64,000 nt of DNA, from positions 2,604,001-2,668,000 of the forward strand of contig NZ_CP027869.1 in assembly GCF_005490985.1 (NCBI RefSeq), in the 5' to 3' direction. The DNA comes from Curtobacterium sp. SGAir0471 (GTDB lineage Bacteria > Actinomycetota > Actinomycetes > Actinomycetales > Microbacteriaceae). Position 1 is the first letter of the stretch. The number at the start of each line of letters is the position of its first letter. The translations under genes were made by a program, and so were the position numbers. The notes below the pieces were generated by a model. The model was not told where the DNA came from and ran no database searches. It saw nothing but the letters and a program-made list of their open reading frames with translations. Below, piece after piece: positions 27,774-53,139 of the stretch.

Positions 27774-27807
27774 GTGAGCGCTCACATCCTGGCACGTGAG
27801 CGCTCAC
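27774..27807. promoter_or_regulatory. Tandem LacI-type operators of araBDA-aldO
   Basis: GTGAGCGCTCAC is found at 27774-27785 and again at 27796-27807, with centres 22 bases apart (two helical turns). The same 12-mer stands ahead of three other transcription units of arabinose use in this window. It is a typical LacI/GalR operator with a central CG step. Confidence 0.85.
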
Positions 27808-27999
27808 GCGTGCAACGCACCGGCGCGCCGCCGTCCCGGGCCCCCGCCGCGTCGACCCGCCCAACCCCGCCTGGCGGTGCCGAGCGGGCACGATCTGTCA
27901 CGCTCGATGCCCATGGCCGACGCATCTCACCCGCTCGACGGCACGCACGCGGCACGTCCTGCCCGCTCGGAATGGCGGCCCACCGCGCTCGCGGGCAGC

Positions 28000-28250
28000 T
28001 TCTCGTCGCAGGACATGCCGCTCGACTTCCCCGCGAACGGCATGTCGTGCGACCGGAGCATCTCCGGGCGGCAAGTCGTGCGACGAGGACACGCCCGCAG
28101 CGCCCGGCCTGCTCGACACCCGCGCAGGTGTCGTTGCGGCGGAGCACCGAAGGCGCGCGTCCCGATGCCACGACACGCCGTCGGTGATCGTCCTCGTCGC
28201 AGGACGTGCCGTTGCGGGCGGAACTGAGCGGCAGGTCGTGCGCCGAGAAC
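28000..28250. repeat. Palindromic intergenic repeats, loci 2 and 3
   Basis: The 474 bases between the araB operators and the LacI gene hold no convincing gene. Arms at 28002-28020, 28037-28058 and 28066-28090 form one element (GTCGCAGGACATGCCG pairs with CGGCATGTCGTGCGAC with one mismatch), and arms at 28193-28211 and 28226-28250 form another. All share the core of the elements at 7376-7487 and 31678-31766. A weak extra arm may lie near 27950. Confidence 0.7.
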
Positions 28251-28281
28251 GCCAGCGCAGCCGCGCAGCAGCGCAGCCGGG

Positions 28282-29286
28282 CTACGCGCCGATGGTGCTC
28301 CCGCGGACGACGAGCCACGGGGTCACGGCCGTCGACGCCGGGGTCCCGCCCGCCACGAGCTCGAGCAGCGCCCGCCCCGCGATCCGCCCGAGTTCGTCGA
28401 GCCGCATGTCGACGGTGGTCAGCGGCGGCCGTGACGCGAGCGCCACCACGTCCCAGTCGTCGTACCCGGTGACGGCGACGTCACCCGGCACCGTCCGTCC
28501 GGTCTCACGCAGCCGGTCGCACACACCCCGGGCGATCTGGTCGTTCCCGCACAGCACCGCGTCGACCGCCGACGACGACCGGTCGAGCAGGTCCACGGCC
28601 CGACGCCCCCACCGCTCGGACCACTCGCCGTGCATCGCAGCGCCCACCATCCGGTCCCCGAGCTCCGCCGCGGCCCCTCGTGCGCGCTCGACCGCCGAGC
28701 GGGCGTCCTCCGGCCCGGTGACCACGGCCACCCGCCGGCGTCCGAGTCCGAGCAGGTGCGCGGCGGCCGCAGCGGCACCGGCGGCGTCGTCGAGGGTGAT
28801 CGACACGTCGGACGGGTCGGTCGACGGCGTCAACGCGTAGACGACCGGGACCGGCAGTGGGACCTCGACGGGCGGGCGCGCATCGGCGGACCGACCCGTG
28901 ACGACGATGCCGTCCACGCCCCGGGCGACGAGCGTGCGGAGGTAGTGGGCCTCGCGGACGTGGTCGTCGCGGGTGTCGCCGACGAGCACCATCATCTCGC
29001 CGGCGGACAGGGCGTCCTCGGCCCCGAGCAGCACGGGCATGGTGAACCGTCCGAACGAGTCGGTCGTGATCATGCCCACCGTGAAGGTCCGGCCGGACGA
29101 CAGCGCCCGCGCCCGTGCATCCCCGACGAAGCCGAGCTTGTCGGCGGCGTCCTTCACCCGACGACGGGTCTCGTCCCGCAGCTGCCCGGTGTCGTTGAGC
29201 GCCTTCGACGCCGTCCCGATCGACACTCCGGCGAGCGCCGCCACGTCGGTGATGCGGACGGAGCGACTCCGAGGCTCGACGGGCAC
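28282..29286 (-). CDS. LacI family repressor (probably of the GH127 gene)
   Basis: A 334-residue LacI/GalR protein. The helix-turn-helix is RITDVAALAGVSIGTASKAL, followed by the hinge helix KLGFVGDARARALSSGRT and a periplasmic-binding-protein-like sensor domain (VGMITTDSFGRFTMPVLLG, GVDGIVVTGRS, GNDQIARGV, TGYDDWDVV, PPLTTVDM). The Ala-to-Ser/Lys changes in the hinge (TASKAL) suit the non-GTGAGC palindrome found nearby. It starts with GTG at 29286 behind GGAAAGGA. It is divergent from the GH127 gene and likely acts at 29373-29390. Confidence 0.9.
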   Translation of the reverse strand: MPVEPRSRSVRITDVAALAGVSIGTASKALNDTGQLRDETRRRVKDAADKLGFVGDARARALSSGRTFTVGMITTDSFGRFTMPVLLGAEDALSAGEMMVLVGDTRDDHVREAHYLRTLVARGVDGIVVTGRSADARPPVEVPLPVPVVYALTPSTDPSDVSITLDDAAGAAAAAAHLLGLGRRRVAVVTGPEDARSAVERARGAAAELGDRMVGAAMHGEWSERWGRRAVDLLDRSSSAVDAVLCGNDQIARGVCDRLRETGRTVPGDVAVTGYDDWDVVALASRPPLTTVDMRLDELGRIAGRALLELVAGGTPASTAVTPWLVVRGSTIGA

Positions 29287-29372
29287 GGCAACGTCCTTTC
29301 CGGTGGGTCGACTGTCGGGATCGTAGCGCGGAAGCCTCTTGTGCACGCGCCGACCGTGCCGTAGCGTCACCG

Positions 29373-29390
29373 ACGGAAAGCGCTTTCCGT
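29373..29390. promoter_or_regulatory. LacI-type operator of the GH127 gene
   Basis: ACGGAAAGCGCTTTCCGT is a perfect 18-base palindrome, 35 bases before the GH127 start and in the gap shared with the divergent LacI gene. It differs clearly from the GTGAGCGCTCAC sites. Confidence 0.75.
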
Positions 29391-29424
29391 ACGGACGGGC
29401 GCCCGTCAGACGCAAGGAGGCGCC

Positions 29425-31662
29425 ATGACCACCACGACCGGCACCACACGCGCCGCTGCCACGACCGGCACCACACCCGCCGCCGCGACGACCGGCACCA
29501 CGCCCGGCACCAAGACGGCCGACGGCACCACGACCGGTCGTCGCCCGCGCACCGCGACCCCGGCCCTCCCGACCGCCGGTGCGCACCTGACGCTCCGTCC
29601 GCTCCCCGTCGGCGGTGCCCGGATCACCGGCGGCTTCTGGGCCCTGCGTCAGGACCGCAACGGACGGGACGCGATCCGGAGCGGGTACGAACGGCTCGAC
29701 GCCGCCGGGAACTTCCGGAACCTCCGGATCGCGGCCGGCGACGAGCAGGGCGAGGCCGTGGGACCGGTCTTCATGGACTCCGACGTGACGAAGTGGCTCG
29801 AGGCCGTCGCGTGGGAGTACGGCCGCGCCCCCGCCGAGGACCTGCTCGCCCTGCAGCGCGAGGTGACCGCGCTGTACGCCCGCGCCCAGGCCGCGGACGG
29901 CTACGTCGACTCCGTGCAGCAGATCCGCGGCGAGGGCGCGCGGTACACGGACCTGAAGTGGAGCCACGAGCTCTACTGCGCCGGACACCTGTACCAGGCC
30001 GCCGTCGCGCAGCACCGGGCGACGGGCGACACCGGGCTGCTCGAGGTCGCCACGAAGAACGCCGACCACCTCGTCGCCACCTTCGGCCCCGGCGACGACC
30101 ACGCGCAGGACGTCGACGGACACCCCGTCGTCGAGACGGGCCTCGTCGAGCTCTTCCGCGAGACCGGGAACCGGGCCTACCTCGACCTCGCGCACTGGTT
30201 CGTCGACGCCCGCGGCCACGGGATGATCGAGCGCGCCGGCGGCGAGCCCACCTACTTCTCCGACCGGGTGCCGGTCCGCGAGGCCACGACCGTCGAGGGC
30301 CACGCCGTCCGTGCCGTCTACCTGGCGGCCGGCGCGGTGGACGTCGCGATCGAGACCGGCGATGCCGAGCTCCTGACGGCGAGCGAACGGCAGTTCGCGG
30401 ACATGACGGCGACGAAGGCGTTCATCACCGGCGGCCTCGGTGCCCGCTGGGACCGGGAGGCGTTCGGCGACCCGTACGAGCTCCCCACCGACCGCGGCTA
30501 CGCCGAGACCTGTGCGGCGATCGGCGGGATCCAGTGGGCCTGGCGCCTGCTGCTCGCGACCGGCAAGCCCGTCTACGCCGACGCGATCGAACGGCTGCTG
30601 TACAACGCGTTCCTGCCCGGGGTCAGCCTCGCGGGCACCGAGTACTTCTACGTCAACCCGCTGCAGCACCGCGACGGTGCGCACCGCGACGAGAACCGCT
30701 CCCCCGCCCACGGCCGCCGCGGTTGGTTCGACTGCGCCTGCTGCCCGCCGAACATCATGCGGACCTTCGCGAGCCTCGACGGCTACCTGGCGACCGTCAC
30801 CGACGGCGGTCTGCAGGTCCACCAGTACGCGGACGCCGACCTCGGCCCGGTCCACGTCCGCACCGGGTACCCGCACGACGGTCACGTGGTCGTCACGGTG
30901 GCCCAGGACGGCCCGCTGGCCCTCGGGTTGCGCATCCCTGCCTGGTCCGACGTCACGTCCGTCACCGGCGCGGGAGGCGAGGCGAGCCCTGCCCCTGGCA
31001 CCCTGCACGTGGTCGAGCGCGACTGGACCGCCGGCGACACCGTCGAGCTCACCTTCGACACGACACCGCACCGGTACGTCGCCGACCCCCGCATCGACGC
31101 GGCCCGTGGCCAGGTCGCCATCGAGCGCGGGCCGCTCGTCTACGCCGTCGAGCAGGCCGACCAGCAGGGCTTCACGGTCGACGACCTGACGGTCGACGCC
31201 GACGCCGAGCTCACGGAGGAGCGTCGTGACGACCTGCTCGACGGGGTCGTCACGCTGCGCGTGCCCGGGCACGCCCCGGCGCGGCACGAGCAGGCAGCGT
31301 GGCCGTACCGTCGACTCGACCGGCCGGGAGGCGCGCCCCACCCCGCAGGCGCGACCACCGGTACCGGGGCGGCCGGCTCCACGGCCGCGACCGACCCCGC
31401 AGACGCGGCTACCGTCGCCGACACGGCCACCCCCACGACCGCAGCCGGCACCGCCGACACCACCACCGCTGCCGACGCGACCGCCCCCGCAACCGCAAAC
31501 GGCAGCGCCGACGCGACCACCCCCGCAACCGCAGCCGGCACCGCGGACACGGCCACGGGCCTCCCGGCCGGCACGTCCGTCACCGCGATCGCGGTGCCGT
31601 ACTACGCCTGGGCGAACCGGGGGCCCGACCCGATGCGCGTCTGGCTCCCGCTCGTCCCCTGA
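29425..31662 (+). CDS. GH127 beta-L-arabinofuranosidase
   Basis: A 745-residue glycoside hydrolase. Family 127 enzymes remove beta-L-arabinofuranose with a zinc-bound cysteine nucleophile. The catalytic set is present: Glu361 and Cys363 in YAETCAAIGG, and Cys439-Cys440 in FDCACCPPNIMR, matching Glu338, Cys340, Cys417 and Cys418 of HypBA1. The toroid start (ITGGFWALRQDRN) and the C-terminal sandwich (VAIERGPLVYAVEQ, AVPYYAWANRGPDPMRVWLP) are in place. Two parts are odd: a Thr-rich first 45 residues and an Ala/Thr/Asp insert at about 635-711 just before the final strands. No signal peptide, so it acts inside the cell on imported oligosaccharides. It has its own promoter with a LacI operator. 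Confidence 0.93.
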   Translation: MTTTTGTTRAAATTGTTPAAATTGTTPGTKTADGTTTGRRPRTATPALPTAGAHLTLRPLPVGGARITGGFWALRQDRNGRDAIRSGYERLDAAGNFRNLRIAAGDEQGEAVGPVFMDSDVTKWLEAVAWEYGRAPAEDLLALQREVTALYARAQAADGYVDSVQQIRGEGARYTDLKWSHELYCAGHLYQAAVAQHRATGDTGLLEVATKNADHLVATFGPGDDHAQDVDGHPVVETGLVELFRETGNRAYLDLAHWFVDARGHGMIERAGGEPTYFSDRVPVREATTVEGHAVRAVYLAAGAVDVAIETGDAELLTASERQFADMTATKAFITGGLGARWDREAFGDPYELPTDRGYAETCAAIGGIQWAWRLLLATGKPVYADAIERLLYNAFLPGVSLAGTEYFYVNPLQHRDGAHRDENRSPAHGRRGWFDCACCPPNIMRTFASLDGYLATVTDGGLQVHQYADADLGPVHVRTGYPHDGHVVVTVAQDGPLALGLRIPAWSDVTSVTGAGGEASPAPGTLHVVERDWTAGDTVELTFDTTPHRYVADPRIDAARGQVAIERGPLVYAVEQADQQGFTVDDLTVDADAELTEERRDDLLDGVVTLRVPGHAPARHEQAAWPYRRLDRPGGAPHPAGATTGTGAAGSTAATDPADAATVADTATPTTAAGTADTTTAADATAPATANGSADATTPATAAGTADTATGLPAGTSVTAIAVPYYAWANRGPDPMRVWLPLVP

Positions 31663-31677
31663 GGTCGGCCCCGCCCG

Positions 31678-31766
31678 GGTCGCACGACATGCCGTCAGCA
31701 GCCGCGCCGGACGGCATGTCGTGCGACGGGAACGGCAGCACTCGGCAGGTCGTGCGACCGGAACCG
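31678..31766. repeat. Palindromic intergenic repeat, locus 4
   Basis: GTCGCACGACATGCCGTC (31679-31696) and its exact complement (31710-31727) form an 18-base stem. A third arm CGGCAGGTCGTGCGACCGGA follows at 31743-31762. It fills the gap between the convergent GH127 and LacI genes, where it may also act as a terminator. Confidence 0.75.
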
Positions 31767-31834
31767 CCTCGGCCGGGACCACCGTGGCGGGGGGCAGGCA
31801 CCGCGACGACCGGACCCGCGACCGGTGGAACCGC

Positions 31835-32884
31835 TCAGGCGGAGCGCCGCACCACGAGCTCGGGCAGCAGCAGCGTCTCGTCGCGGGGCTCCCCCTCGAC
31901 CACGGCCACGACCGCCTCGAGCACCCGCTGCCCCATCGCCATGAAGTCCTGCCGCACGGTGGTGAGCGGCGGGGTGAAGTGCGCCGCCTCGGGGATGTCG
32001 TCGAACCCGACCACGGCGATGTCGTCCGGCACGCGGAGCCCCTCGTCGGCGAAGGCGTGGAGCACCCCGAGCGCCATCTGGTCGTTCCCGGCGAAGACGG
32101 CGTCGACCGCGTGCACGTCGATCGTCCGCGCCGCCGCGAAGCCGCTCGCCGGGGTCCAGTCGCCGTCGAGCACGACCGGCTCGAGCCCCGCCTCGCGCAT
32201 GATCCGGCCGTAGGTCGCTCGGCGCACCTCGGACTCCTGTGACACCGCCGGTCCGGCGATGTGCACCACCCGGCGGTACCCGCGGGCGAACAGGTGCTCC
32301 ATCACGAGCGTGGTGCCCGCGGCCTGGTCGATCGCGACGGCGGCGACGCTCCGCGCGGCGGGGGTCCGGACCGCATCGCGCTGCACGGCGTTCGCGACGA
32401 CGACGGGGACGGTCACCGGGATCGTCAGCGACGCGAGGGCGTCGAGCACGCGGTTGTCGGCCGCGACGAGCACGATCGCGGCGACGTCCTGCGCGAGCAG
32501 CGTGGTGAGCGCGCCGGACAGGTCCACGGGTCGGGGGTCGTCCGGCAGCGTCGAGAGCAGCACGTGGTACCCGGCCGACCGGGCGGCCCGCTCGAACCCG
32601 ACCGCGGTGCTCGACGGTCCGTACAGCGCGTCGCCCGCCGTGATGATGCCGAGCGCACGGCTGCGCCCGCCCGCGAGGGCCCTGGCGGCCGCGCGGGGCC
32701 GGTACCCGAGCTCCGCGACGGCGTCGGTGACCTGCGAGCGGTAGGCGTCACGGACGGTGGGGTCGCCGTTGATCACCCGGGAGACGGTCTGGTGCGAGAC
32801 ACCCGCGCGCTCGGCGACGTCGAAGATCGTCGGGGCCTTGCGGCGTCTGCCGCCGGGGCCCCCGAGCGCGGTCGTCGTGGTCAC
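31835..32884 (-). CDS. LacI family repressor (candidate arabinose regulator)
   Basis: A 349-residue LacI/GalR protein. After a flexible N-terminus the helix-turn-helix reads TIFDVAERAGVSHQTVSRVI, with the hinge YRPRAAARALAGGRS, then the sensor domain (LGIITAGDALYGPSS, VAIDQAAGTTLVMEHLF, HIAGPAVSQESEVRR, AGNDQMALGVLHAF, VGFDDIPEAAHFTPPLTTV). It starts with GTG at 32884. It is divergent from the monosaccharide importer, whose upstream gap holds one GTGAGCGCTCAC, so it is the best candidate for the protein that binds all five copies. The classical hinge (ARAL) suits a CG-centred operator. Confidence 0.9.
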   Translation of the reverse strand: MTTTTALGGPGGRRRKAPTIFDVAERAGVSHQTVSRVINGDPTVRDAYRSQVTDAVAELGYRPRAAARALAGGRSRALGIITAGDALYGPSSTAVGFERAARSAGYHVLLSTLPDDPRPVDLSGALTTLLAQDVAAIVLVAADNRVLDALASLTIPVTVPVVVANAVQRDAVRTPAARSVAAVAIDQAAGTTLVMEHLFARGYRRVVHIAGPAVSQESEVRRATYGRIMREAGLEPVVLDGDWTPASGFAAARTIDVHAVDAVFAGNDQMALGVLHAFADEGLRVPDDIAVVGFDDIPEAAHFTPPLTTVRQDFMAMGQRVLEAVVAVVEGEPRDETLLLPELVVRRSA

Positions 32885-32973
32885 CTGGCCGAGCGTAGCG
32901 CTCGGTCCGCGTGACGCAACAACATCTCGGAACGGTCACGACGAGTTGACACCCCGGAACGGAACCCTCAGTA

Positions 32974-32987
32974 TGTGAGCGCTCACA
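32974..32987. promoter_or_regulatory. LacI-type operator of the monosaccharide importer
   Basis: TGTGAGCGCTCACA is a perfect 14-base palindrome in the gap between the divergent LacI gene and the importer, 79 bases before the importer start. Confidence 0.85.
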
Positions 32988-33065
32988 CGAGCACATCCCA
33001 CGGGGCACAGCAGCCCCAGCACCCGAGCGCGTCGAGGACGACGCGAGAGGAACAGAGGTACTTCG

Positions 33066-34199
33066 ATGATGAAGCGCAAGGTCATCGCGGGGGTCGCGGC
33101 CCTCGGCATCGCGTTCTCCCTGGCAGCCTGCTCGGCCGGCGGCCGTGCAGCGACCACCGGCGGCGGCGACACCGCGGACGGCAACAAGGGCGCCCTGGTC
33201 GGCGTCGCGATGCCGACCAAGGTCTCCGAGCGGTGGATCAAGGACGGCGACGCCGTCAAGAGCGACCTCGAGAAGGCCGGCTACAAGGTCGACCTCGAGT
33301 ACGGCGACAACAAGGTCCAGCAGCAGGCCCAGCAGGTCAGCAACATGATCACGAAGGGCGCGAAGGTCCTGATCATCGCGTCGATCGACGGTGGGGCGCT
33401 GTCCGACCAGCTCGACCAGGCGGCGAAGGCCGGCATCAAGGTGATCTCCTACGACCGCCTGCTCACCGGCAACAAGAACGTCGACTACTACGTGTCGTTC
33501 GACAACTACAAGGTCGGCGTCGACCAGGCCACGTCGCTGCTCACGGGCCTCGGCGTGCTCGACGACAAGGGCGAGAAGACCGGCAAGAAGGGCCCGTTCA
33601 ACATCGAGGTCTTCGCCGGCTCGCTCGACGACAACAACGCCGGGTTCTTCTTCAACGGCGCGATGGACACCCTCAAGCCGTACCTCGAGGACGGCACGCT
33701 GAAGATCGGCTCCGGCCAGGACCAGCTCTCGCAGGCCGCCACGCAGCAGTGGGACCCGGCGACCGCCAAGGCCCGCATGCAGAACCTCGTCGCGTCGACC
33801 TACTCGGGCGGCACGAAGCTCGACGGTGTGCTCTCGCCCTACGACGGCATGTCGATCGGCATCATCTCGGCCCTGCAGGGCGCCGGCTACGGCTCGGGTG
33901 ACCGTCCGCTGCCGATCGTGACCGGTCAGGACGCCGAGGCCGCCTCGGTCAAGTCGATCATCGCGGGCCAGCAGTACTCCACCATCTACAAGGACACGCG
34001 CAAGCTCGCGAAGCAGTCCGTGACGATGGCCGAGGACCTGCTCTCGGGCAAGACCCCCGAGGTCAACGACACCAAGAGCTACGACAACAAGGTCAAGGTC
34101 GTCCCGACCTACCTGTTCCAGCCCACGGTGGTGACGAAGGCCAACTACAAGGAGGTCCTCGTCGACAGCGGGTACTACACCGAGGCCGACCTCAAGTAG
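33066..34199 (+). CDS. chvE: Sugar-binding lipoprotein of a monosaccharide ABC importer (ChvE type)
   Basis: A 377-residue lipoprotein with signal peptide [20 protein letters not shown] and lipobox LAAC. The mature part is a ChvE-like periplasmic-binding protein type [90 protein letters not shown] and [10 protein letters not shown]. ChvE homologues bind arabinose, xylose, galactose or glucose. The nearby operator and genes favour L-arabinose. The ATG at 33066 has AGAGG ahead of it; the adjacent ATG at 33069 is possible. First gene of a three-gene operon, separated from the ATPase gene by two hairpins that may set a higher level of the binding protein. Confidence 0.92.
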
Positions 34200-34208
34200 G
34201 TCCCCCGA

Positions 34209-34304
34209 CCCGCGGCCGGCGCACGCCGGTCGCGGGAGCGACACGGTCGCAACCACTCACAGGACTGGAGGCGCGGTGCACCCGGCGCACCGCGCCTCCA
34301 GTCC
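34209..34304 (+). terminator. Double hairpin between importer genes, likely attenuator
   Basis: Hairpin 1: 12-base arms 34209-34220 and 34225-34236 with one mismatch. Hairpin 2: perfect 18-base arms GGACTGGAGGCGCGGTGC (34262-34279) and complement (34287-34304). They lie between the binding protein gene and the ATPase gene of the same operon, so partial termination or mRNA 3'-end protection is likely. Confidence 0.65.
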
Positions 34305-34349
34305 GTCTCCACCCGCGCTCACGCGCGCAACGACGGAAAGGCGGTCCAC

Positions 34350-35886
<1,537 letters not shown>

Positions 35887-35900
<14 letters not shown>

Positions 35901-37068
35901 GTCCGCCGTCGGCTACCTCACCGGGCAGCTCCGACAGATCGGCCTGTTCATCGCGCTGATCGTCATCGTCATCTTCTTCCAGGTGGCGACGAACGGCATC
36001 ACCCTGGCCCCGATCAACGTCTCGAACCTGATCGTCCAGAACAGCTACATCCTCATCCTCGCCATCGGCATGGTGATGGTCATCATCGCCGGCCACATCG
36101 ACCTGTCCGTCGGGTCCGTCGTCGCCTTCAGCGGTGCGATGGCCGGTGTGATGATCACGCAGTGGGGACTCCCCTGGCCCGTCGCGGCGGTCCTCTGCCT
36201 GGTCGTCGGCGCCCTCGTCGGCGCGTGGCAGGGCTTCTGGATCGCGTACTTCGGGATCCCGGCGTTCATCGTGACGCTCGCGGGCATGCTCGCCTTCCGC
36301 GGTGCGACCCAGATCGTGCTGCAGAACCAGCAGATCTCGCCGTTCCCGGAGGGCTTCCGCTCGCTCGGCTCCGGCTTCCTGCCGTCGTTCGGCACCACGG
36401 GCTACGAGCCCCTCACGATGATCCTCGGCATCGCGGCAGCCGCCGTCATGGTGATCACCGCGTTCCGTGGTCGCATCACGCGGCGCAAGTACCAGCTCGA
36501 GAGCGAGCCGTTCGCCTGGTTCATCGTGAAGACGGCCTTCGGTGCCGCCCTCGTGATCTACGTGGCGCTGCTGCTCGCCAGCTACAACGGCACGCCCATC
36601 GTGCTCGTCGTGCTCGGTCTGCTCGTGGTGATCTACTCGGTGGTCATGCGCAGCTCCGTGTTCGGTCGCCACGTCTACGCGATCGGCGGCAACGCCCTCG
36701 CCGCGCAGCTGTCCGGCGTGAAGACGAAGCGCGTCACGTTCCTGCTCTTCGTGAACATGGGCGTCATCGCGGCCCTGGCGGGCGTGGTCTTCACCGGCCA
36801 GCTCAACCTCGCCGCCCCGGGTGCCGGCAACGGCTTCGAGCTCGACGCCATCGCGGCCGTCTTCATCGGTGGCGCCGCGGTCACCGGCGGCATCGGCACG
36901 GTCCCGGGTGCGATCGTCGGTGGTCTCATCATCGGCATCCTGAACAACGGCATGTCGATCCTCGGTGTCGGCACCGAGTACCAGTCGCTCATCAAGGGCC
37001 TGGTGCTGCTCGCCGCCGTCGCGTTCGACGTGTTCAACAAGCGCCGGGCGGCGTCCGCGCGCAAGTAG
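35887..37068 (+). CDS. mmsB: Permease of a monosaccharide ABC importer
   Basis: A 393-residue CUT2-type permease with about ten hydrophobic segments. Family points are [57 protein letters not shown] with the ATPase-coupling region, and [19 protein letters not shown] near the end. The longer loop at about residues 150-210 ([17 protein letters not shown]) is typical of the GguB/xylose-type group. It works as a homodimer with the ATPase and ChvE-like protein. It starts inside the end of the ATPase gene. A 16-base tandem repeat and a very long hairpin follow. Confidence 0.95.
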
Positions 37069-37082
37069 GGTCCGCTGCTCAC

Positions 37083-37114
37083 GTAGCGCTCGCTGCTCGT
37101 AGCGCTCGCTGCTC
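37083..37114. repeat. 16-base tandem duplication
   Basis: GTAGCGCTCGCTGCTC occurs twice in direct succession, 14 bases after the permease stop and just before the long hairpin. Confidence 0.8.
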
Positions 37115-37124
37115 CCGAGTACCC

Positions 37125-37177
37125 CGCGAAAGCGACAGACCTCCACGGAAGTTCCGTGGAGGTCTGTCGCTTTCGCG
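37125..37177. terminator. Long perfect hairpin between convergent genes
   Basis: Arms of 26 bases (37125-37150 and 37152-37177) are perfectly complementary around a single base, so the real loop is a few bases. It serves the convergent permease and GH13 genes. The outer CGCGAAAGCGACAG shares AGCGACAG with the palindrome inside the fused ATPase gene. Confidence 0.8.
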
Positions 37178-37194
37178 TCCTGGTCACCGTGGGA

Positions 37195-40132: not shown

Positions 40133-40134
40133 TC

Positions 40135-45009: not shown

Positions 45010-45030
45010 GGTGTGTCTCTCTCGTACGAC

Positions 45031-45063
45031 GGGGCCGTGCGGACGTGGTGTCCGCACGGCCCC
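45031..45063 (-). terminator. Hairpin between binding protein and beta-galactosidase genes
   Basis: GGGGCCGTGCGGAC (45031-45044) and its exact complement (45050-45063) enclose a 5-base loop. Being inside the operon it may attenuate or stabilise mRNA rather than end transcription fully. Confidence 0.65.
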
Positions 45064-45084
45064 GGGGTGTGGGGAACGCGGGTG

Positions 45085-46416
45085 TTACTTGCTCTCGACC
45101 GTGAAGCCCTGGTCCTTGCCGTACTTCACGAGCACCTTCTGCCAGGCCTCGAGACCGCTCTCGAGCGAGGTGCCGTTCTGGTACGCCTGGCCGACGGTGT
45201 CGGCGTAGACGCTGTTCGCGTACACCTGGTACGGCAGGTAGGTGAAGTCGTTCGCCGAGGTCTTCGAGGCGTCGACGAGGACCTTGTTGATGTCCTGACC
45301 GCCGAAGTACTCCGGCTTCTCGTCCAGGAACGAGGCCGAGTCGAGGTCGGCGGTGGTCGACGGGAAGCCACCCGACTGCATGAAGACCTTCGTGGACTCC
45401 TCCGACGAGTTGAGCCACTTGAGGAAGCCGGCGGCCAGGGCCGGGTTCTTCGACTGCTTCATGACGACCTCGGAGCTGCCGCCGTTGCTGGCCGTCTGGG
45501 CCTTGCCGCCGTCGTAGGTCGGCATCGGGGCGACGCGCCAGTCACCCTTGGCGTCCGGCACGCTGGCCATCAGGTTGCCGGGCATCCATGCACCGGTGAC
45601 CATCGTGGCGATCTCGCCGTTGCCGAGCTGCTTGTACCAGTCGTCGGTCCAGCCGGTGGTCTTCGACAGCAGGCCCTGCTCGACGAGCTGGTCCCAGGTC
45701 TTCGCCCACTTCTGCGAGCCGGCGTCGTGCAGGTCGATGGTGATCTTGTCGCCGTCGGTCGTGAACGGGGTGCCACCGGCCTGGGCGATCATGCTCGTGG
45801 TGAAGCCGGCGTCACCGGAGTCCGCCGCGATGTACTTCGACGGGTCCGCCTCGTGCAGCTTCTTGGCCGCGGCGATGTACTCGTCCCACGTCGACGGCAC
45901 CTCGATGCCGTACTCGTCGAAGACCTTCTTGTTGTAGAACAGCGCCATGGGGCCGGAGTCCTGCGGCAGGCCGTAGACCTTGCCGTCCATGGCGACGTTG
46001 CTCCAGGTGCCCTTCGAGAACTTGCTCTCGAGGTCGCCGAACCCGTACGACGACAGGTCGACGAGCGAGTCGGACAGGGCGAACTGCGGCAGCGCGTAGT
46101 ACTCGACCTGGGCGACGTCGGGCGCACCCGAGCCGGCCTTGATCGTGTTCTGCAGCTTGGTGTACTGGTCGGCGCCGGTGCCGGCGTTGACGAGCTTCAC
46201 CTTCACCTTGGGGTACTGCTTCTCGAAGGCGGCGACCTGGTCCTTGGCCGAGGGGGTCCAGGACCAGTAGGTCAGCGTGCCGCCGTCCTTCAGGGCCTTG
46301 TCGATGTCGTCGGCCGAGCCGCCGGCGGAGCTGCCGGAGGCGCAGGCGGTCATCGCGATGGCGGCGGTGACGCCGATGGCGAGGGCGCTGAGCCCGCGCC
46401 GGAGACGCTTGTTCAT
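45085..46416 (-). CDS. Sugar-binding lipoprotein (CUT1 type)
   Basis: A 443-residue family 1 solute-binding protein. The N-terminus MNKRLRRGLSALAIG leads to lipobox MTAC. Mature landmarks are GTLTYWSWTPSAKDQVAAFEKQYPKVKV, DVAQVEYYALPQF, KVYGLPQDSGPMALFYNKKVFDEYGI and GAWMPGNLMASVP. It binds an oligo- or disaccharide; the downstream GH35 gene suggests a beta-galactoside. Unusually, the gene follows the two permease genes in the operon. Hairpins flank it on both sides. Confidence 0.92.
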   Translation of the reverse strand: MNKRLRRGLSALAIGVTAAIAMTACASGSSAGGSADDIDKALKDGGTLTYWSWTPSAKDQVAAFEKQYPKVKVKLVNAGTGADQYTKLQNTIKAGSGAPDVAQVEYYALPQFALSDSLVDLSSYGFGDLESKFSKGTWSNVAMDGKVYGLPQDSGPMALFYNKKVFDEYGIEVPSTWDEYIAAAKKLHEADPSKYIAADSGDAGFTTSMIAQAGGTPFTTDGDKITIDLHDAGSQKWAKTWDQLVEQGLLSKTTGWTDDWYKQLGNGEIATMVTGAWMPGNLMASVPDAKGDWRVAPMPTYDGGKAQTASNGGSSEVVMKQSKNPALAAGFLKWLNSSEESTKVFMQSGGFPSTTADLDSASFLDEKPEYFGGQDINKVLVDASKTSANDFTYLPYQVYANSVYADTVGQAYQNGTSLESGLEAWQKVLVKYGKDQGFTVESK

Positions 46417-46470
46417 GGGTTGCCTTCCACTTCTTCGTGATCTGGGGCTGGGGTGGTGCTGCTGTGTGCC

Positions 46471-46516
46471 GGTCGGGAGGAGCGTGGCGGGCTGCCGACG
46501 TGCCTCCCGTCCGACC
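46471..46516 (-). terminator. Imperfect hairpin between malG-like and binding protein genes
   Basis: GGTCGGGAGG (46471-46480) pairs with CCTCCCGTCCGACC (46503-46516) with a 4-base bulge. It has the GGGAGG/CCTCCC core seen at other gene ends here. Position is inside the operon, directly downstream of the second permease gene. Confidence 0.45.
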
Positions 46517-46518
46517 GG

Positions 46519-47511
46519 TCAGGCCTTGACGGAGCCGGCCGCGAGGCCGGACTGCCAGAAGCGCTGGAGGAAGAGGAACGCGACCACGATCGGGATGATC
46601 GTGAGGAGCGATCCGGTGACGACGAGGTTGTAGATCGGCTGCGCGCCGGAGCCGGTGGCCTGCGCGTTCCACTGGTTGAGGCCGACCGTGAGGGGGTACC
46701 ACTTCGGGTCGCTCAGCATGATGAGCGGCAGGAAGTAGTTGTTCCAGGTGGCGACGACCGCGAAGAGCAGGACGGTGACGACGCCGGGGGTGAGGAGCTT
46801 CAGCGCGATGGTGAAGAAGATCCGGAACTCGCCGGCGCCGTCCATGCGGGCGGCCTCGATGAGCTCGGTCGGGATCGCGTCGATCGCGTAGGTCCAGATG
46901 AGGTACATGCCGAACGGGCTGATGAGCGACGGCAGGATGATCGCCCACGGGGTGTTCGTCAGGCCGAACTGCGAGAAGAGCAGGAAGGTCGGGACGGCGA
47001 GGGCGGTGCCGGGGACGGCGATCGCGCCGAGGACGACGGCGAAGACCGCACGACGGCCGGGGAACTGGAACTTCGCCATGCCGTAGCCGGCGACCGTGGC
47101 GAGCAGGGTCGCGCCACCGGCACCCACGACCACGTACAGCAGCGTGTTGCCGAGCCACTGCATGAAGATGCCGTCGTTGTAGGTGAGCGTGTCGACGATG
47201 TTCTGCCACAGGTTGAAGTCGCCGCCGAACCACAGGCCGAACGTCGACAGCAGCGATGCCTGGGTCTTCGTGCTGTTCACCAGCAGGTAGAACAGCGGCG
47301 CGAACGAGTAGACGACGAAGACGACCATCACGGCGGTCAGGAGACCGGAGCGCTTCACCTTGCGTCCGTCGACGGGCTTGCCGGCGCGGCGCGGCCGGGA
47401 GGCACGGGTCGCGCGGTCGCGCGGGTCGCGCTGCGTGGTGGTCGCCTCGGTGACCGTGGCCGGTCCGGTCCCGCCGGCGGGGCCGGTCGCGGGGTGCTGC
47501 AGGGTGCTCAT
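46519..47511 (-). CDS. Sugar ABC importer permease (MalG-like)
   Basis: A 330-residue CUT1 permease with a long, Thr/Pro/Arg-rich cytoplasmic N-terminus (about 50 residues), then six hydrophobic segments. The ATPase-coupling motif is EAARMDGAGEFRIFFTIALKLLTPG. It pairs with the MalF-like permease; the ATG overlaps that gene's stop (ATGA). No ATPase gene is in the cluster. Confidence 0.93.
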   Translation of the reverse strand: MSTLQHPATGPAGGTGPATVTEATTTQRDPRDRATRASRPRRAGKPVDGRKVKRSGLLTAVMVVFVVYSFAPLFYLLVNSTKTQASLLSTFGLWFGGDFNLWQNIVDTLTYNDGIFMQWLGNTLLYVVVGAGGATLLATVAGYGMAKFQFPGRRAVFAVVLGAIAVPGTALAVPTFLLFSQFGLTNTPWAIILPSLISPFGMYLIWTYAIDAIPTELIEAARMDGAGEFRIFFTIALKLLTPGVVTVLLFAVVATWNNYFLPLIMLSDPKWYPLTVGLNQWNAQATGSGAQPIYNLVVTGSLLTIIPIVVAFLFLQRFWQSGLAAGSVKA

Positions 47512-48443
47512 CGGTTCTCCTGGCGGGTTCCGCGGACCTGGACGACGTAGGCGATCACGGCGGTGATGACGCCCATGACGATGGCGACGGTGGCGGAGTA
47601 GTTGAACTGCTGGCCGCTGAAGGACAGCGAGTAGGCGTACATGTTCGGGGTGAAGGCGCTGCCGATGACGTTCGGGGCGAGGGTCTTCAGCAGGTTCGGC
47701 TCGTTGAAGAGCTGGAAGCTGCCGATGATCGAGAAGATCGTGGCGATGACCATCGGGCCGCGCAGGGCGGGCAGCTTGATCGAGAAGACGGTGCGCAGCG
47801 GGCCGGCGCCGTCGAGCTCGGCGGCCTCGTAGAGCTCACCGGGGACGACGCGGAGGGCCGCGTAGAAGATCAGCATGTTGTAGCCGAGGAACTCCCACGT
47901 GACCACGTTGCCGATGGACGTGAGGACCCAGGTCGGGCTGAACGGCTGGAGCAGGTCGATGCCGAGCGCGCTGTTCGCGGCGCCGGTGAGACCGAACTGG
48001 TTGCCGTAGATGAAGCCCCAGATGAGGGCCGCGACGACGCCCGGCACCGCGTAGGGCAGGAACACCGCGATGCGGAAGAACCCGGTGCCCCAGAGCCGAG
48101 CGCTGTCGAGCGCGAGGGCCGCGACGAGGGCGAGGCCGAGCATGATCGGGACCTGCACGACGAGGAACAGCGCGACGCGGCCGAGGCCCGACCAGAACTG
48201 TGCGTCCTGGAACAGCTGCACGTAGTTGGCGAACCAGACGAACTGGTTGCCACCGATGAGCTGGTCGCGGAACAGGCTGAGCCAGAGCGCGTACCCGATC
48301 GGCACGATGAGCATCGCCACGAGGACGACGACGAAGGGGCCGACGAACAGCCAGCCGGTGTACCGCCCCCGGACCTTCGGGCGGCGAGCGGACGGCCGCG
48401 CGGGCGGTGCCGCCTCGGCCGGGCGCGCTGCGAGCGTGCTCAT
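47508..48443 (-). CDS. Sugar ABC importer permease (MalF-like)
   Basis: A 311-residue CUT1 permease with six hydrophobic segments starting with GWLFVGPFVVVLVAMLIVP. The coupling motif is ELYEAAELDGAGPLRTVFSIKLPALRG. The ATG at 48443 is preferred to an upstream start at 48485 because the family N-terminus begins here. It is the first gene of the operon (MalF-like, MalG-like, binding protein, GH35), downstream of a LacI operator pair and divergent from the regulator gene. Confidence 0.93.
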   Translation of the reverse strand: MSTLAARPAEAAPPARPSARRPKVRGRYTGWLFVGPFVVVLVAMLIVPIGYALWLSLFRDQLIGGNQFVWFANYVQLFQDAQFWSGLGRVALFLVVQVPIMLGLALVAALALDSARLWGTGFFRIAVFLPYAVPGVVAALIWGFIYGNQFGLTGAANSALGIDLLQPFSPTWVLTSIGNVVTWEFLGYNMLIFYAALRVVPGELYEAAELDGAGPLRTVFSIKLPALRGPMVIATIFSIIGSFQLFNEPNLLKTLAPNVIGSAFTPNMYAYSLSFSGQQFNYSATVAIVMGVITAVIAYVVQVRGTRQENR

Positions 48444-48540
48444 GTGACTCCCTTGTCTGCTGCGTTCGGGTTCCGGACCGTGCACCTGTCGGTGCGATCG
48501 GGACGTGCCCTGCCTGCGCTGGCACCGATCCGGAGGACGT

Positions 48541-48560
48541 CGATGTTGACGTCAACATCG
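48541..48560. promoter_or_regulatory. LacI-type operator of the beta-galactoside operon
   Basis: CGATGTTGACGTCAACATCG is a perfect 20-base palindrome. A weaker second site lies at 48576-48595 (GCATG and CATGC around GCAACGTCAA). Both are between the divergent importer operon and its LacI gene. The TGTTGACGTCAACA core is like other GalR/LacI operators. Confidence 0.8.
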
Positions 48561-48631
48561 GACGACGCCACCGTAGCATGGCAACGTCAACATGCACTAG
48601 CGTTCGAGGACGCCGAACGGAGGGAACAGCG

Positions 48632-49672
48632 TTGTCGACCGACCTGACCGCACCGCGTCGTGCGCCGTCGCTGGCCGCCGTCGCCGATGCTGCCGGCGTC
48701 TCCATGCAGACCGTCTCGCGGGTCGCCCGGGGGTTCGACAACGTCAGTCCGGACACCCGCGACCGGGTCCAGCGCGCGATGGACGAGCTGGGCTACCGGC
48801 CGAACCGGGCGGCGCGGGCGCTGCGGTCCGGTCGCTTCCGGACCATCGGCGTGATCATGTTCACGCTCGCGTCGTTCGGCAACATGCGCACGCTCGAGGC
48901 GATCTCGGCAGCAGCGGCGGCGGCGGACTTCACCATCACCCTGCTGCCGATGGCGTCGCGCACCGGCGAGGGTGTCCGCACCGCGCTCTCGCGGCTGCAC
49001 GAGCAGGCGGTCGACGGCGTCGTCATCGTCATCGAGTCGCACATCATCGACACGGCCGAGGTCGTGCTGCCGAGCGGTGTCCCGCTCGTGGTGGTGGACT
49101 CGACGGGCACGACCGACCGTCCCTCGATCGACATCGACCAGGCCGAGGGTGCCCGGCTCGCCACGCAGCACCTGCTCGACCTCGGGCACGAGACCGTCTG
49201 GCACGTCGCCGGGCCCTCCGCCTCGTACTCCGCCGAGCGCCGACTGTCCGCGTGGCGGGAGACGCTGGAGCGCGCGGGTCGCGCCGTCCCACCGGTCTTC
49301 CCCGGCGGCTGGTCCACGGCCGACGGGCACCGCGCCGGGCTGGAGATCGCGGCGCGCCCCGAGATCACCGCCGTCTTCGCGGTGAACGACCAGACCGCGC
49401 TCGGCGTGCTCCGGGCCGCGCACGAGGCCGGTCGGGCCGTGCCGGAGAGCCTGAGCGTCGTGGGGTTCGACGACTTCCCCGAGTCGGAGTCGTTCTGGCC
49501 GCCGCTCACCACCGTGCACCAGTCCTTCGACGAGGTCGGGCGCCGTGCGGTCGCGACGCTGCTCGCGCAGATCGAGGGCACGGCCGTCCGGACCTCGACC
49601 GACCTGGTGCCGGTCAGCCTGGTCGAGCGGGCGAGCACCGCCCCACCGCCGCCGACCCGGGCACCGGCCTGA
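48632..49672 (+). CDS. LacI family repressor of the beta-galactoside operon
   Basis: A 346-residue LacI/GalR protein: SLAAVADAAGVSMQTVSRVA is the helix-turn-helix, YRPNRAARALRSGRFR the hinge, and GVIMFTLASFGNMRTLEAI begins the sensor domain, which contains PSIDIDQAEGARLATQHLL, WHVAGPSASYSAERRLSAW, VNDQTALGVLRAA and VGFDDFPESESFWPPLTTVHQSF. It is of the galactosidase-regulator type. The start is a TTG at 48632, chosen because a strong GGAGGGA stands 6 bases ahead; no ATG or GTG is as well placed. It probably autoregulates through 48541-48595. Confidence 0.9.
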   Translation: MSTDLTAPRRAPSLAAVADAAGVSMQTVSRVARGFDNVSPDTRDRVQRAMDELGYRPNRAARALRSGRFRTIGVIMFTLASFGNMRTLEAISAAAAAADFTITLLPMASRTGEGVRTALSRLHEQAVDGVVIVIESHIIDTAEVVLPSGVPLVVVDSTGTTDRPSIDIDQAEGARLATQHLLDLGHETVWHVAGPSASYSAERRLSAWRETLERAGRAVPPVFPGGWSTADGHRAGLEIAARPEITAVFAVNDQTALGVLRAAHEAGRAVPESLSVVGFDDFPESESFWPPLTTVHQSFDEVGRRAVATLLAQIEGTAVRTSTDLVPVSLVERASTAPPPPTRAPA

Positions 49673-49691
49673 GCACCCCTAGAATCTCGGG

Positions 49692-51200
49692 ATGGAACTC
49701 GTCGCCCCCTCCCCCGAGTACTTCCCGTCCTTCCGCCGCGCCCTGCAGGAGTGGGGCGGCGCGCACCAGGACGGTGCCGGTATCCGCGACGCCGCCGCAC
49801 TGCAGGCCCGAGCGGGCTTCGAGCACTGGGTGGAGCAGCTGCTCGCCGAGGAGACCGTCCCCGCCAGCCCGGGACACGTCACCTGCACCTACCGCTGGAT
49901 CGTCGAGGGCGACGAGTACCTCGGCAGCATCGCCCTCCGGCACGAGCTGAACGACTTCCTCCGCTCGTACGGCGGGCACGTCGGGTACGGCGTCCGTCCG
50001 TCGGCCCGGGGGCGGGGCCTGGCGTCCGCTGCACTCGCCCAGGTCGTCGCGCTCGCGGCCGAGCGCGGGCTGCCCGAGGTGATGCTGACCTGCGACGCGA
50101 CGAACCCCGCGTCGCGTCGGGTCATCGAGCACGCCGGCGGCCGGTACGAGCGCAGCGTGGTCGACCCGGACGGGCACACCCTGCTCCACCACTGGATCCG
50201 TACGGGTTCGCACGCGCAGACCGACGTCTCCGCGGTGGACATCGTCGGCGGCCCCGAACCGCTGACCGTCGGACTGCACGACCACGACCCCGCCTGGTCC
50301 GCCCGCTACGCGGAGCACCGCGCACGGATCGCCGCGGCCCTGTCCGGGCAGCACGTCACGATCGAGCACATCGGGTCGACGTCCGTGCCGGGCCTCGCCG
50401 CGAAGCCGATCGTCGACGTGGCGGTGGCCGTGCCGGACGTCACCGACGAATCCGCGTACCTCGCCCCGCTGCTCGACGCCGGGTACGAGCTCCGCGTGCG
50501 GGAACCCGGGCACCGGCTCGTCCGCACGCCCGGGCGGGACGCCCACGTGCACGTCTACGAGCACGGCGCCCCCGAGCTCGACGACTACCTGCTGCTCCGC
50601 GACCAGCTCCGCCGCGACGACGCCGACCGGCAGCGGTACGAGGACACCAAGCGTGCGCTCATGGAGCAGTCGTGGGAGGACACGAACGCGTACGCCGACG
50701 CCAAGTCCGCCGTGATCGCGGACATCAAGGCCCGCGCCCGCTCGAGGACGGTGCACATCCGCCCGGTCCGGTCGACGGACGCCGACGCCTGGCAGGCCCT
50801 GTACGCCGGCTACCGCGCCTTCTACCGCCTGCCCGAGGACGCCGAGGCGGTCCGTACCACCTGGCACTGGGTGTCGACGGGCGCGCACGGGCTGTCCGGT
50901 CTGGTCGCCGAGGACGCCGACGGCCACCTGCTCGGGCTCGCCGACCTCCGGCGCTTCGCCCGCCCGTCGTCGGCGACGACCGGGCTGTACCTCGACGACC
51001 TGTTCACCGCGCCCGACGCCCGGGGACGCGGCGTCGCGACCGCGCTGCTGCACGCGGCCGCCGCCACCGCCGCCGCCGAGGGTGCGAGCGTCGTCCGCTG
51101 GATCACCGCCGAGGACAACGCGACCGCGCGGGCGGTCTACGACCGCGTCGCCGAGGCGACGCCGTGGGTCACGTACGACATGCGGCCGTCCGCGGACTGA
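49692..51200 (+). CDS. GNAT-GrpB-GNAT three-domain fusion
   Basis: A 502-residue cytoplasmic protein with three recognisable modules. Residues 1-170 are a GNAT acetyltransferase with acetyl-CoA loop VRPSARGRGLASAAL (101-115) and LTCDATNPASRRVIEHAGG. Residues about 190-350 are a GrpB/UPF0157 domain of the nucleotidyltransferase fold: HIGSTSVPGLAAKPIVDVAV (226-245), then HVHVYEHGAPELDDYLLLRD and YADAKSAVI. Residues 352-502 are a second GNAT with PDARGRGVATALL and ITAEDNATARAVYDRV. All three look intact. GrpB domains are known alone or fused with other enzymes; two flanking GNATs is unusual to me. It starts at ATG 49692, 19 bases after the LacI stop, and may be read through from it. Substrates are unknown. 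Confidence 0.88.
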   Translation: MELVAPSPEYFPSFRRALQEWGGAHQDGAGIRDAAALQARAGFEHWVEQLLAEETVPASPGHVTCTYRWIVEGDEYLGSIALRHELNDFLRSYGGHVGYGVRPSARGRGLASAALAQVVALAAERGLPEVMLTCDATNPASRRVIEHAGGRYERSVVDPDGHTLLHHWIRTGSHAQTDVSAVDIVGGPEPLTVGLHDHDPAWSARYAEHRARIAAALSGQHVTIEHIGSTSVPGLAAKPIVDVAVAVPDVTDESAYLAPLLDAGYELRVREPGHRLVRTPGRDAHVHVYEHGAPELDDYLLLRDQLRRDDADRQRYEDTKRALMEQSWEDTNAYADAKSAVIADIKARARSRTVHIRPVRSTDADAWQALYAGYRAFYRLPEDAEAVRTTWHWVSTGAHGLSGLVAEDADGHLLGLADLRRFARPSSATTGLYLDDLFTAPDARGRGVATALLHAAAATAAAEGASVVRWITAEDNATARAVYDRVAEATPWVTYDMRPSAD

Positions 51201-51209
51201 CCCACCGGC

Positions 51210-51301
51210 GGACGGGAGGCGCGCGACCGGACCGTGCCGCGCCTCCCGTCCAGTGCGTCTCGGGTCGGGAGGCGCGCGACCGGACCGCGCCGCGCCTCCC
51301 G
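51210..51301. terminator. Two near-identical hairpins
   Basis: First: GGACGGGAGGCGCG (51210-51223) and complement (51238-51251). Second: CGGGAGGCGCG (51266-51276) and complement (51291-51301). Their loops are also almost the same, so one is a copy of the other. They follow the fusion gene. Confidence 0.75.
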
Positions 51302-51308
51302 TCCGGCA

Positions 51309-51380
51309 CCGGCCCGTGCACGCTGACACGGGCCGGACACGAGCGAAGGGCACCGGTCCGCTCGCGCGGGCCGGTGCCCT
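51309..51380. terminator. Two further hairpins before the convergent abfA gene
   Basis: CCGGCCCGTG (51309-51318) with complement at 51327-51336, and AGGGCACCGG (51347-51356) with complement at 51371-51380, both perfect. With the preceding pair they make four hairpins in 171 bases between convergent genes. Confidence 0.65.
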
Positions 51381-51450
51381 CCGTGCTCACTCGACGCTCA
51401 CCGGAGCGCTCGCCGAGGCGTTCGTGCGCCGACCGTGGTCGGCGGTCGGG

Positions 51451-52953
51451 TCAGCCGATCGACACCGCGGTCCAGGAGACCGGCGGCAGCTCGATCGTGA
51501 TCGTGTCGCCCTCGCGGCGGACGGTCTCGTTCGTGCGGAGCCCGACCCGCTCACGGTCCGCGAGGTCGTTGACGGCGTGCACGTCGTCGTCCCAGATCCC
51601 CTCGGCACGGACGTCGCCGTCGGCGCCGATGCCCGCGAGGTCGATCGTGACGGTGGTGGTCTCGGTCTGGTGGCGGTTCACCAGGAACACCGCGGCCTTG
51701 CCGTCCTCGACCGTGGCGGCCGAGTCGACGACCGGCACCTCGCCGTACTTGCCGCCGTCGACCGTGTCGCCCGACGCCTTGACCTGCAGCGAGGTGCCGG
51801 TGGCCAGCTTCGAGGTGACCGAGAACGGGAAGAACGTCGTCTGCCGCCAAGCGGGGCCGCCCGGCTCGGTCATGATCGGGCCGATGACGTTGACGAGCTG
51901 GGCGATGCTCGCCGAGGCGACCCGGTCGGCGTGGCGGAGCAGCGAGATGAGCAGACCGCCGACGACGACCGCGTCCGCCACCGTGTAGACGTCCTCGAGC
52001 AGGCGCGGGGCGACCGGCCAGTCCTGCAGCTCGAAGGTCTTCTGCTGCTCGTTCCACTTGCTGAGCGACCAGACGTTCCACTCGTCGAACGAGATGTCGA
52101 TCCGCTTGTCCGACTTCTTGTGCGCCTTGACGTGGTCGGCGGCGGTCGTGACGGTGTCGATGAAGTGGTCCATGTTCACTCCCGAGGCGAGGAACGAGGT
52201 CAGGTCGCCCTCCTCCTCGTAGTAGGCGTGGGCGGAGATGTAGTCGACGTCGTCGTAGGCGTGCTCGAGGACGGTGCGCTCCCACTCGCCGAACGTCGGC
52301 ATCGAGGCGCCGGACGAACCGCACGCGACGAGTTCGAGGTCAGGCTGGATCTGCCGCATGGCCTTCGCGGTCATCGCGGCGAGCTTGCCGTAGTCCTCCG
52401 CGTTCTTGTGGCCCAGCTGCCACGGGCCGTCCATCTCGTTGCCGAGGCACCACATCTTGATCGCGAACGGCTCCTGGCGGCCGTTCGAGCGGCGGTACTC
52501 GCTGAGCGCGGTACCGGCGTCGATGTTCGCGTACTCGAGGAGCTCGATGGCCTCCTGCGTGCCGCGGGTACCGAGGTTCACGGCGAGCATGAGCTCGGAG
52601 TCGACCGCGTCGAGCCAGTGCTGGAACTCGTGCAGGCCGACCTCGTTGGTCTCGGTCGAGTGCCAGGCGAGGTCGAGGCGACGCGGACGCTGCTCGACGG
52701 GGCCGACGCCGTCCTCCCACTTGTAGCCGGAGACGAAGTTGCCGCCGGGGTAGCGGATCGCCGAGACGTTCAGCTCCTTGACGAGGTCGATGACGTCCCT
52801 GCGGAAGCCGTGCTCGTCGGCGGTCTCGTGGGCGGGCTCGTGGATGCCGTCGTAGACGTGGCGTCCGAGGTGCTCGACGAACCCACCGAACAGGCGACGG
52901 CGCACCGGCCCCACGGTGAACGCGGCGTCGAGGACGAGGTGTGTGCGGGGCAT
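51451..52953 (-). CDS. abfA: GH51 alpha-L-arabinofuranosidase
   Basis: A 500-residue family 51 enzyme that releases alpha-L-arabinofuranose from arabino-oligosaccharides. Landmarks are RRLFGGFVEHLGRHVYDGI, IRYPGGNFVSGYKWEDG, acid/base Glu173 in CLGNEMDGPWQLGH, HAYYEEEGD, and nucleophile Glu291 in SFDEWNVW. The C-terminal beta domain ends PPVSWTAVSIG. No signal peptide, so it is intracellular. It starts at ATG 52953 behind AAAGGAGA. A GTGAGCGCTCAC lies 59 bases upstream, and it is divergent from the oligosaccharide importer that carries the same operator. Confidence 0.96.
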   Translation of the reverse strand: MPRTHLVLDAAFTVGPVRRRLFGGFVEHLGRHVYDGIHEPAHETADEHGFRRDVIDLVKELNVSAIRYPGGNFVSGYKWEDGVGPVEQRPRRLDLAWHSTETNEVGLHEFQHWLDAVDSELMLAVNLGTRGTQEAIELLEYANIDAGTALSEYRRSNGRQEPFAIKMWCLGNEMDGPWQLGHKNAEDYGKLAAMTAKAMRQIQPDLELVACGSSGASMPTFGEWERTVLEHAYDDVDYISAHAYYEEEGDLTSFLASGVNMDHFIDTVTTAADHVKAHKKSDKRIDISFDEWNVWSLSKWNEQQKTFELQDWPVAPRLLEDVYTVADAVVVGGLLISLLRHADRVASASIAQLVNVIGPIMTEPGGPAWRQTTFFPFSVTSKLATGTSLQVKASGDTVDGGKYGEVPVVDSAATVEDGKAAVFLVNRHQTETTTVTIDLAGIGADGDVRAEGIWDDDVHAVNDLADRERVGLRTNETVRREGDTITIELPPVSWTAVSIG

Positions 52954-53011
52954 GGATCTCCTTTGATCGACGTAGGGGCTCGCGGTGCGACGTGATCAGC
53001 CCGGTACGAAA

Positions 53012-53023
53012 GTGAGCGCTCAC
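53012..53023. promoter_or_regulatory. LacI-type operator of abfA
   Basis: GTGAGCGCTCAC, 59 bases before the abfA start on the other strand. Same 12-mer as at araB and both arabinose-linked importers. Confidence 0.82.
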
Positions 53024-53127
53024 GTCTCATGGAACGCTAGCGGGTCCGGACCGGTTGGGGAAGCGGCGGCGCGCCCGAGTCGTAACGTTCACGAAAGGGG
53101 TGGCGCACCCCCGACCGTGCCGCTACT

Positions 53128-53139
53128 GTGAGCGCTCAC
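53128..53139. promoter_or_regulatory. LacI-type operator of the oligosaccharide importer
   Basis: GTGAGCGCTCAC, 46 bases before the binding-protein start, 105 bases from the abfA copy in the same divergent gap. Confidence 0.82.

Follow-up and report, generated by a model that had tools for sequence, protein, structure and literature searches.

A LacI-family protein encoded in a 64-kb stretch of the Curtobacterium sp. SGAir0471 genome (the window, hereafter, is this whole stretch; the genome is 3.53 Mb) is very probably an AraQ-like repressor of arabinose genes. This protein, LacI1, is predicted to bind the palindromic 12-mer GTGAGCGCTCAC at the promoters of araBDA, of the sugar importer operon chvE-gguAB, of the arabinofuranosidase gene arfA, and of an oligosaccharide importer. 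Five exact copies of the 12-mer occur in the window (Table 1), and each lies 5' of the start codon of araB, chvE, arfA, or the extracellular solute-binding protein (SBP) gene of the importer. The original prediction had reported these five positions and no others, and an exact search agrees on both points. It had also named LacI1 as the common regulator of the four units, a proposal that is well supported, at the level of sequence, by the invariance of the sites, the gene neighborhoods, and the palindromes that accompany the other LacI genes.

Relaxing the window search to two mismatches adds a single match, at 21869, which differs from the 12-mer at two positions. Dinucleotide-shuffled windows contain 0.02 exact copies on average, and none of 100 shuffles has at least five; a chance origin of the five copies was rejected on this basis. 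The exact 12-mer is found seven times in the whole genome, compared with zero for the reversed control. A genome-wide search with one mismatch, which had been proposed as a check, gives 17 matches versus 7 for the control. None of the seven exact sites is at a central glycolysis gene (the weaker matches are annotated in part). Two exact copies lie outside the window. The one at 976407 (L001:1501-1512) was rejected as an operator because it falls within a coding frame, reading VSAH at a gene start, and it is apparently a coding coincidence; we take the gene to be treY. The other, at 2977667, is non-coding. The ten one-mismatch matches were set aside as regulon members on the basis of their frame context: four are inside frames with strong codon bias, and of the other six, L012 and L014 are at first look in long frames. 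Some of these six, which also comprise L009, L010, L310, and L311, could be weak sites.

Among 60 genomes of the genus, exact copies of the 12-mer sum to 339, as opposed to 9 for its reversed form, with 2 to 7 copies per genome. LacI1 is detected in 58 of these genomes, and the two misses are a 790-contig assembly and a 73%-complete assembly. Gene neighborhoods were compared in 79 named loci fetched by the LacI1 protein and not by the site. Within the 42 closest loci (L036-L077), which represent Curtobacterium (40) and two other Microbacteriaceae, LacI1 proteins are 64-95% identical, or 77-95% if L074 is left aside. The chvE site is present in all 40 of these loci that hold the chvE 5' end. 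The araB 5' end is contained in 38 loci, where two exact sites (33 loci), one exact and one single-mismatch site (4 loci), or a single site (L074) precede it, and the paired sites are always 22 bp apart (37/37). An arfA match exists in every one of the 60 genomes. Both the arfA and the importer site occur in all 30 of the best arfA loci of the 60, own genome included, at a spacing of 81, 115-117, or 126 bp; some of the remaining 30 genomes, seen through their sites, also have both copies, and G040 lacks them. The alignments separate the operators from their surroundings. All 12 operator columns are invariant on the lacI1 side (41 sites, comprising the 40 beside a chvE 5' end and L051) compared with 1 of 75 flanking columns, and mean conservation is 1.00 versus 0.69. 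The arfA site is equally constant (12/12 columns versus 0/80 in the flanks; 30 loci), as is the importer site (12/12 versus 12/80; 30 loci).

The positions of the operators relative to promoter elements picked out by eye are suited to repression. At araB, a TTGCAC element is followed by operator 2 within the spacer, then by CAGGAT and operator 1. At chvE, TTGACA and CAGTAT are separated by 17 nt, and the operator is immediately next. The arfA operator lies about 10 nt 3' of TAGCGT. Each position, whether in the -35/-10 spacer, next to the -10 element on its 3' side, or some 10 nt beyond it, is one where bound LacI1 would obstruct RNA polymerase. LacI1 would be released by a signal that arabinose is available, which might be L-arabinose or an intermediate such as L-ribulose-5-phosphate or D-xylulose-5-phosphate. 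Arabinose uptake, the import and cleavage of arabino-oligosaccharides, and catabolism would then rise jointly. The paired araB sites equal the symmetric lac operator at its core, and papers on LacI promoters contain the 12-mer. An Rfam search of L018 gave no match.

LacI1 combines a LacI-type helix-turn-helix (HTH) domain (PF00356) with a periplasmic-binding-protein-like effector domain (PF13377). As had been noted, the gene is divergent from one of its proposed targets; it faces chvE across GTGAGCGCTCAC, and this operator extended by a single base in either direction (32974-32987) is exactly TGTGAGCGCTCACA, the published AraQ consensus. The LacI1 assignment is also favored by a paralog in the genome that has the same HQTVSR helix and an upstream palindrome with the GTGA half-site of GTGAGCGCTCAC (described below). 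The other four window sites have the same 12-mer and depart from TGTGAGCGCTCACA at one or both outer bases. In the window, lacI1 is 4 kb from araBDA with the GH127 and LacI2 genes in between, and in L038, L060, L069, and L070 it immediately precedes the araB sites. Along with the HTH and effector domains, the consensus operator, and the proximity to araBDA, LacI1 shares with AraQ the combination of sites at araBDA and at an ATP-binding cassette (ABC) importer.

CG-centered palindromes are the usual operators of the LacI family (Ravcheev 2014, PMC4052901). AraQ is a LacI-family protein predicted to act ahead of araBDA, and distant homologs are found by the ara operons of other Actinomycetales, for which that study reports no distant sites (Khoroshkin 2016, PMC4746261). 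The AraQ regulon was later extended to araFGH and, in some species, to arabino-oligosaccharide genes (Arzamasov 2018, PMC5928203). Two further criteria for AraQ are orthology in a tree and an HTH domain of up to 90% identity; in a tree that we built from LacI relatives other than AraQ, a good number of them linked to ara genes, the deep branches have no firm order, and the LacI2 row is faulty. LacI1 resembles AraQ in its family, in its palindrome, and in its araBDA target. An adjacent araFGH ABC importer is also described for examples from Micrococcaceae, Geodermatophilaceae, and Glycomycetaceae (PMC5928203), and the ChvE/GguAB importer probably corresponds to it. Genes for alpha-arabino-oligosaccharides are under AraQ in P. 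denticolens, and in A. omnicolens and B. magnum they are under both AraQ and AbfR. Curtobacterium differs in that its arfA/importer unit is remote with operators of its own, its araB operators are paired 22 bp apart, and a further site precedes a GH42 operon. Bifidobacterium AraQ exercises global control of glycolysis, whereas none of the seven exact sites here is at such genes; glycolysis control is not a defining feature of the local AraQ of other Actinobacteria (PMC5928203).

The original prediction had contrasted this system with AraR control of the AraC/GntR type. That contrast falls away, since LacI-type arabinose regulators are already published, both AraQ, with the same operator, and AraR of Corynebacterium glutamicum (PMC5956887; Kuge 2014). 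The latter, as described for strain ATCC 31831, is an L-arabinose-responsive LacI/GalR repressor of araA, araB, araD, and araE; going by that description, its transporter is AraE, whereas ABC importers are found here. The bifidobacterial LacI proteins AbfR, AauR, and BauR (PMC5928203) are similarly associated with arabinofuranosidases and oligosaccharide importers, and BauR, which accompanies beta-arabinofuranosidase genes, recalls LacI2 facing a GH127 gene. The difference is that the alpha-oligosaccharide genes mostly have a LacI protein of their own in those species, whereas they carry the site of the arabinose genes here. Because AraQ with TGTGAGCGCTCACA and the LacI-type AraR are published, the novelty is small, and the result is sound, largely ordinary, and overturns no known principle. 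It extends a published type of regulator to Curtobacterium, and it adds the GH42 site, the distant unit of arfA and its importer, and the doubled araB operators as parts of a genus-wide, testable operator set that includes a natural double-operator promoter. A limited literature search that combined Curtobacterium, arabinose, and LacI found no title on the subject.

The original prediction named four units, and the set of sites extends beyond them. A sixth conserved site (L017:7668-7679, the exact copy at G000:C1:2977667) precedes another operon 320 kb away, where it lies between a LacI gene and genes for a Tat-type SBP, two permeases, and a GH42 enzyme. It is exact in all 15 carriers, that is, those of the 60 genus genomes with an SBP match. 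The site does not belong to the SBP coding sequence, since it can be read in frame with the SBP twin-arginine motif without a stop in seven carriers and is out of frame or stopped in eight. LacI1 perhaps acts at this distant operon as well. Another importer operon (L147:4001, L280-L309) is present in 49 of the 60 genomes and was not found in the own genome; in 30 of its 49 carriers, the site is exact (22), has one mismatch (6), or is absent (2).

These outlying operons lend some support to a reading in which LacI paralogs share the operator, with LacI1 serving the arabinose genes, the LacI protein of the GH42 operon (L017:7717-8838) serving its own operon, and perhaps the paralog at 365 kb taking part. 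Such sharing is rather unlikely, and it overlaps with the assignment to LacI1 without excluding it. The GH42-operon LacI gene adjoins the site kept in every carrier, the exact site recurs at the importer operon absent from the own genome, and in B. breve the operators bound by AraQ and by MalR1 are almost identical (Lanigan 2019, PMC6882875). However, a different palindrome core, CTACGTAG, is found upstream of the GH42-operon LacI gene in 15/15 carriers, and its recognition helix, QKTVSR, differs from that of LacI1. The HQTVSR helix of LacI1 is common to a paralog (L219:7106-8125). A palindrome picked by eye upstream of this paralog, ATGTGAACGTGCACAT, has the same GTGA half-site as GTGAGCGCTCAC. 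As a separate observation, this paralog adjoins a second ChvE/GguA/GguB-like importer (L219:2608-6897), with GTGACCGTTCAC and ATGTGAACGTGCACAT nearby.

Three LacI-family genes are present in the window, one more than first counted, and it is very improbable that either of the others, LacI2 or LacI3, binds the GTGAGCGCTCAC sites. LacI2 adjoins araB, and LacI3 is 2 kb from arfA and near it in many related loci. Each of them, however, faces another perfect palindrome, CGGAAAGCGCTTTCCG (29374-29389) between LacI2 and the GH127 gene and ATGTTGACGTCAACAT (48543-48558) between LacI3 and a GH35/ABC operon, which makes LacI1 the likely binder of GTGAGCGCTCAC. For LacI2 this argument is weakened because CGGAAAGCGCTTTCCG is present in only 2 of the 42 related loci scanned (L036 and L075). 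A LacI2 ortholog is absent, meaning no match or only a 35% match falling on LacI1, from 8 of the 38 loci that span lacI1 to the araB 5' end (L038, L060, L062, L069, L070, L072, L074, and L077), but both araB sites are kept in seven of these eight (with one mismatch in L069). LacI2, CGGAAAGCGCTTTCCG, and the GH127 beta-L-arabinofuranosidase-like gene are in themselves a possible separate local regulon. That the sites arose by chance or are a repeat with no regulator is scarcely conceivable: a single exact copy out of the genome's seven does fall in a coding frame, but the 12-mer is invariant amid drifting promoters and far outnumbers its reversed control across the genus.

Several observations weigh against the assignment to LacI1. 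A strict promoter scan of 27700-33100 called no promoter. Binding by AraQ is reported, and the published tests found no effector for it (PMC6882875). The LacI DNA-binding domain is matched 17 times in the genome, and another HQTVSR protein could share GTGAGCGCTCAC. Two divergent members also depart from the pattern. In L074, no 12-mer precedes arfA, which has a different palindrome, CTACAACGTTGTAA, instead. In G040, neither arfA nor the importer SBP gene is preceded by a 12-mer, a further LacI gene (L218:3094-4086; 31% identical to LacI1) lies between them, and the LacI protein beside the chvE site matches LacI3 best (44%). A TTACATCGTTGTAA-like stretch can be seen by eye ahead of the G040 arfA gene, and a similar half-site precedes the SBP gene. 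The arfA branch is thus not universal, and in these two members a regulator other than LacI1 may control arfA and the importer; the G040 facts slightly lower our confidence in LacI1.

The same two members bear on how the regulon may have formed. In the window, arfA and the importer, with their own operators, are 20 kb from lacI1. In L074, arfA, lacI1, one site, and araBDA form a contiguous block in which arfA immediately precedes lacI1. In G040, an unbroken stretch comprises the importer permeases, lacI1, one site, and araBDA, and arfA, the importer, lacI1, and araBDA all fall inside 14 kb. These arrangements tie the genes together, not the sites. L074 and G040 may keep a local arrangement, and in the main group LacI1 may have taken the place of a local regulator of arfA and the importer. 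We suggest tentatively, at somewhat less than even likelihood, that a local AraQ-type repressor became a wider regulator of plant-cell-wall sugars in the main group, covering arabinose catabolism, the monosaccharide importer, the remote arfA/oligosaccharide importer unit, and an overlay on the GH42 operon. If so, the GH42 operon would keep its own LacI protein, the regulon would suit feeding on arabinogalactan, and the divergent members may hold arfA and the importer under another LacI protein. A comparison of the arfA/importer sites in the main group with those in the divergent members could show how a local regulon is taken over.

Beyond the genus, the 14-mer TGTGAGCGCTCACA, searched with at most one mismatch, is present in 78 of 199 family genomes; the 199 include four genus members. 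Of 30 family loci that were looked at (three from the own genus), L257, L260, L261, and L279 have the exact 12-mer flanked by a LacI1 relative (45-51% identity) and ara genes, and in L276-L278 it precedes a chvE gene; many other loci of the 30 show no such link. Of the remoter relatives encoded close to chvE or ara genes, some have TGTTAGCGCTCACA (L080 and L095) or TGTTAGCGCTAACA (L105), and others, such as L082 and L084, have neither.

Table 1. Operators, LacI genes, and genes of the four units in the window
Feature	Position	Strand	Remarks
araA, L-arabinose isomerase	23731..25389	-	NCBIfam above cut-off; frame overlaps araD
araD, L-ribulose-5-phosphate 4-epimerase	25251..25961	-	NCBIfam above cut-off
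araB, FGGY kinase	25958..27745	-	ribulokinase by context
Operator araB-1	27774..27785		just 3' of probable araB -10 CAGGAT (by eye)
Operator araB-2	27796..27807		between probable araB -35 TTGCAC and -10 (by eye)
LacI2	28282..29286	-	neighboring LacI, probably not binder of GTGAGCGCTCAC
LacI1, probable AraQ-like repressor	31835..32884	-	recognition helix GVSHQTVSRVING
Operator lacI1/chvE	32975..32986		intergenic, lacI1 to chvE
chvE-type sugar-binding protein	33066..34199	+	NF040907 above cut-off
gguA ATPase	34350..35900	+	NCBIfam above cut-off
gguB permease	35887..37068	+	NCBIfam above cut-off
LacI3	48632..49672	+	probably not binder of GTGAGCGCTCAC
arfA, alpha-L-arabinofuranosidase	51451..52953	-	NF051901 above cut-off
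Operator arfA	53012..53023		5' of arfA
Operator oligosaccharide importer	53128..53139		immediately 3' of TACT/TAAT -10-like element (by eye)
Oligosaccharide importer SBP	53185..54552	+	Pfam
Importer permease 1	54607..55572	+	Pfam
Importer permease 2	55574..56488	+	Pfam

Two of the gene assignments call for comment. The name araB rests on context because the best NCBIfam model (XylB) scores far below its cut-off. The true start of araA is probably near 25250, since the family match starts at residue 54.

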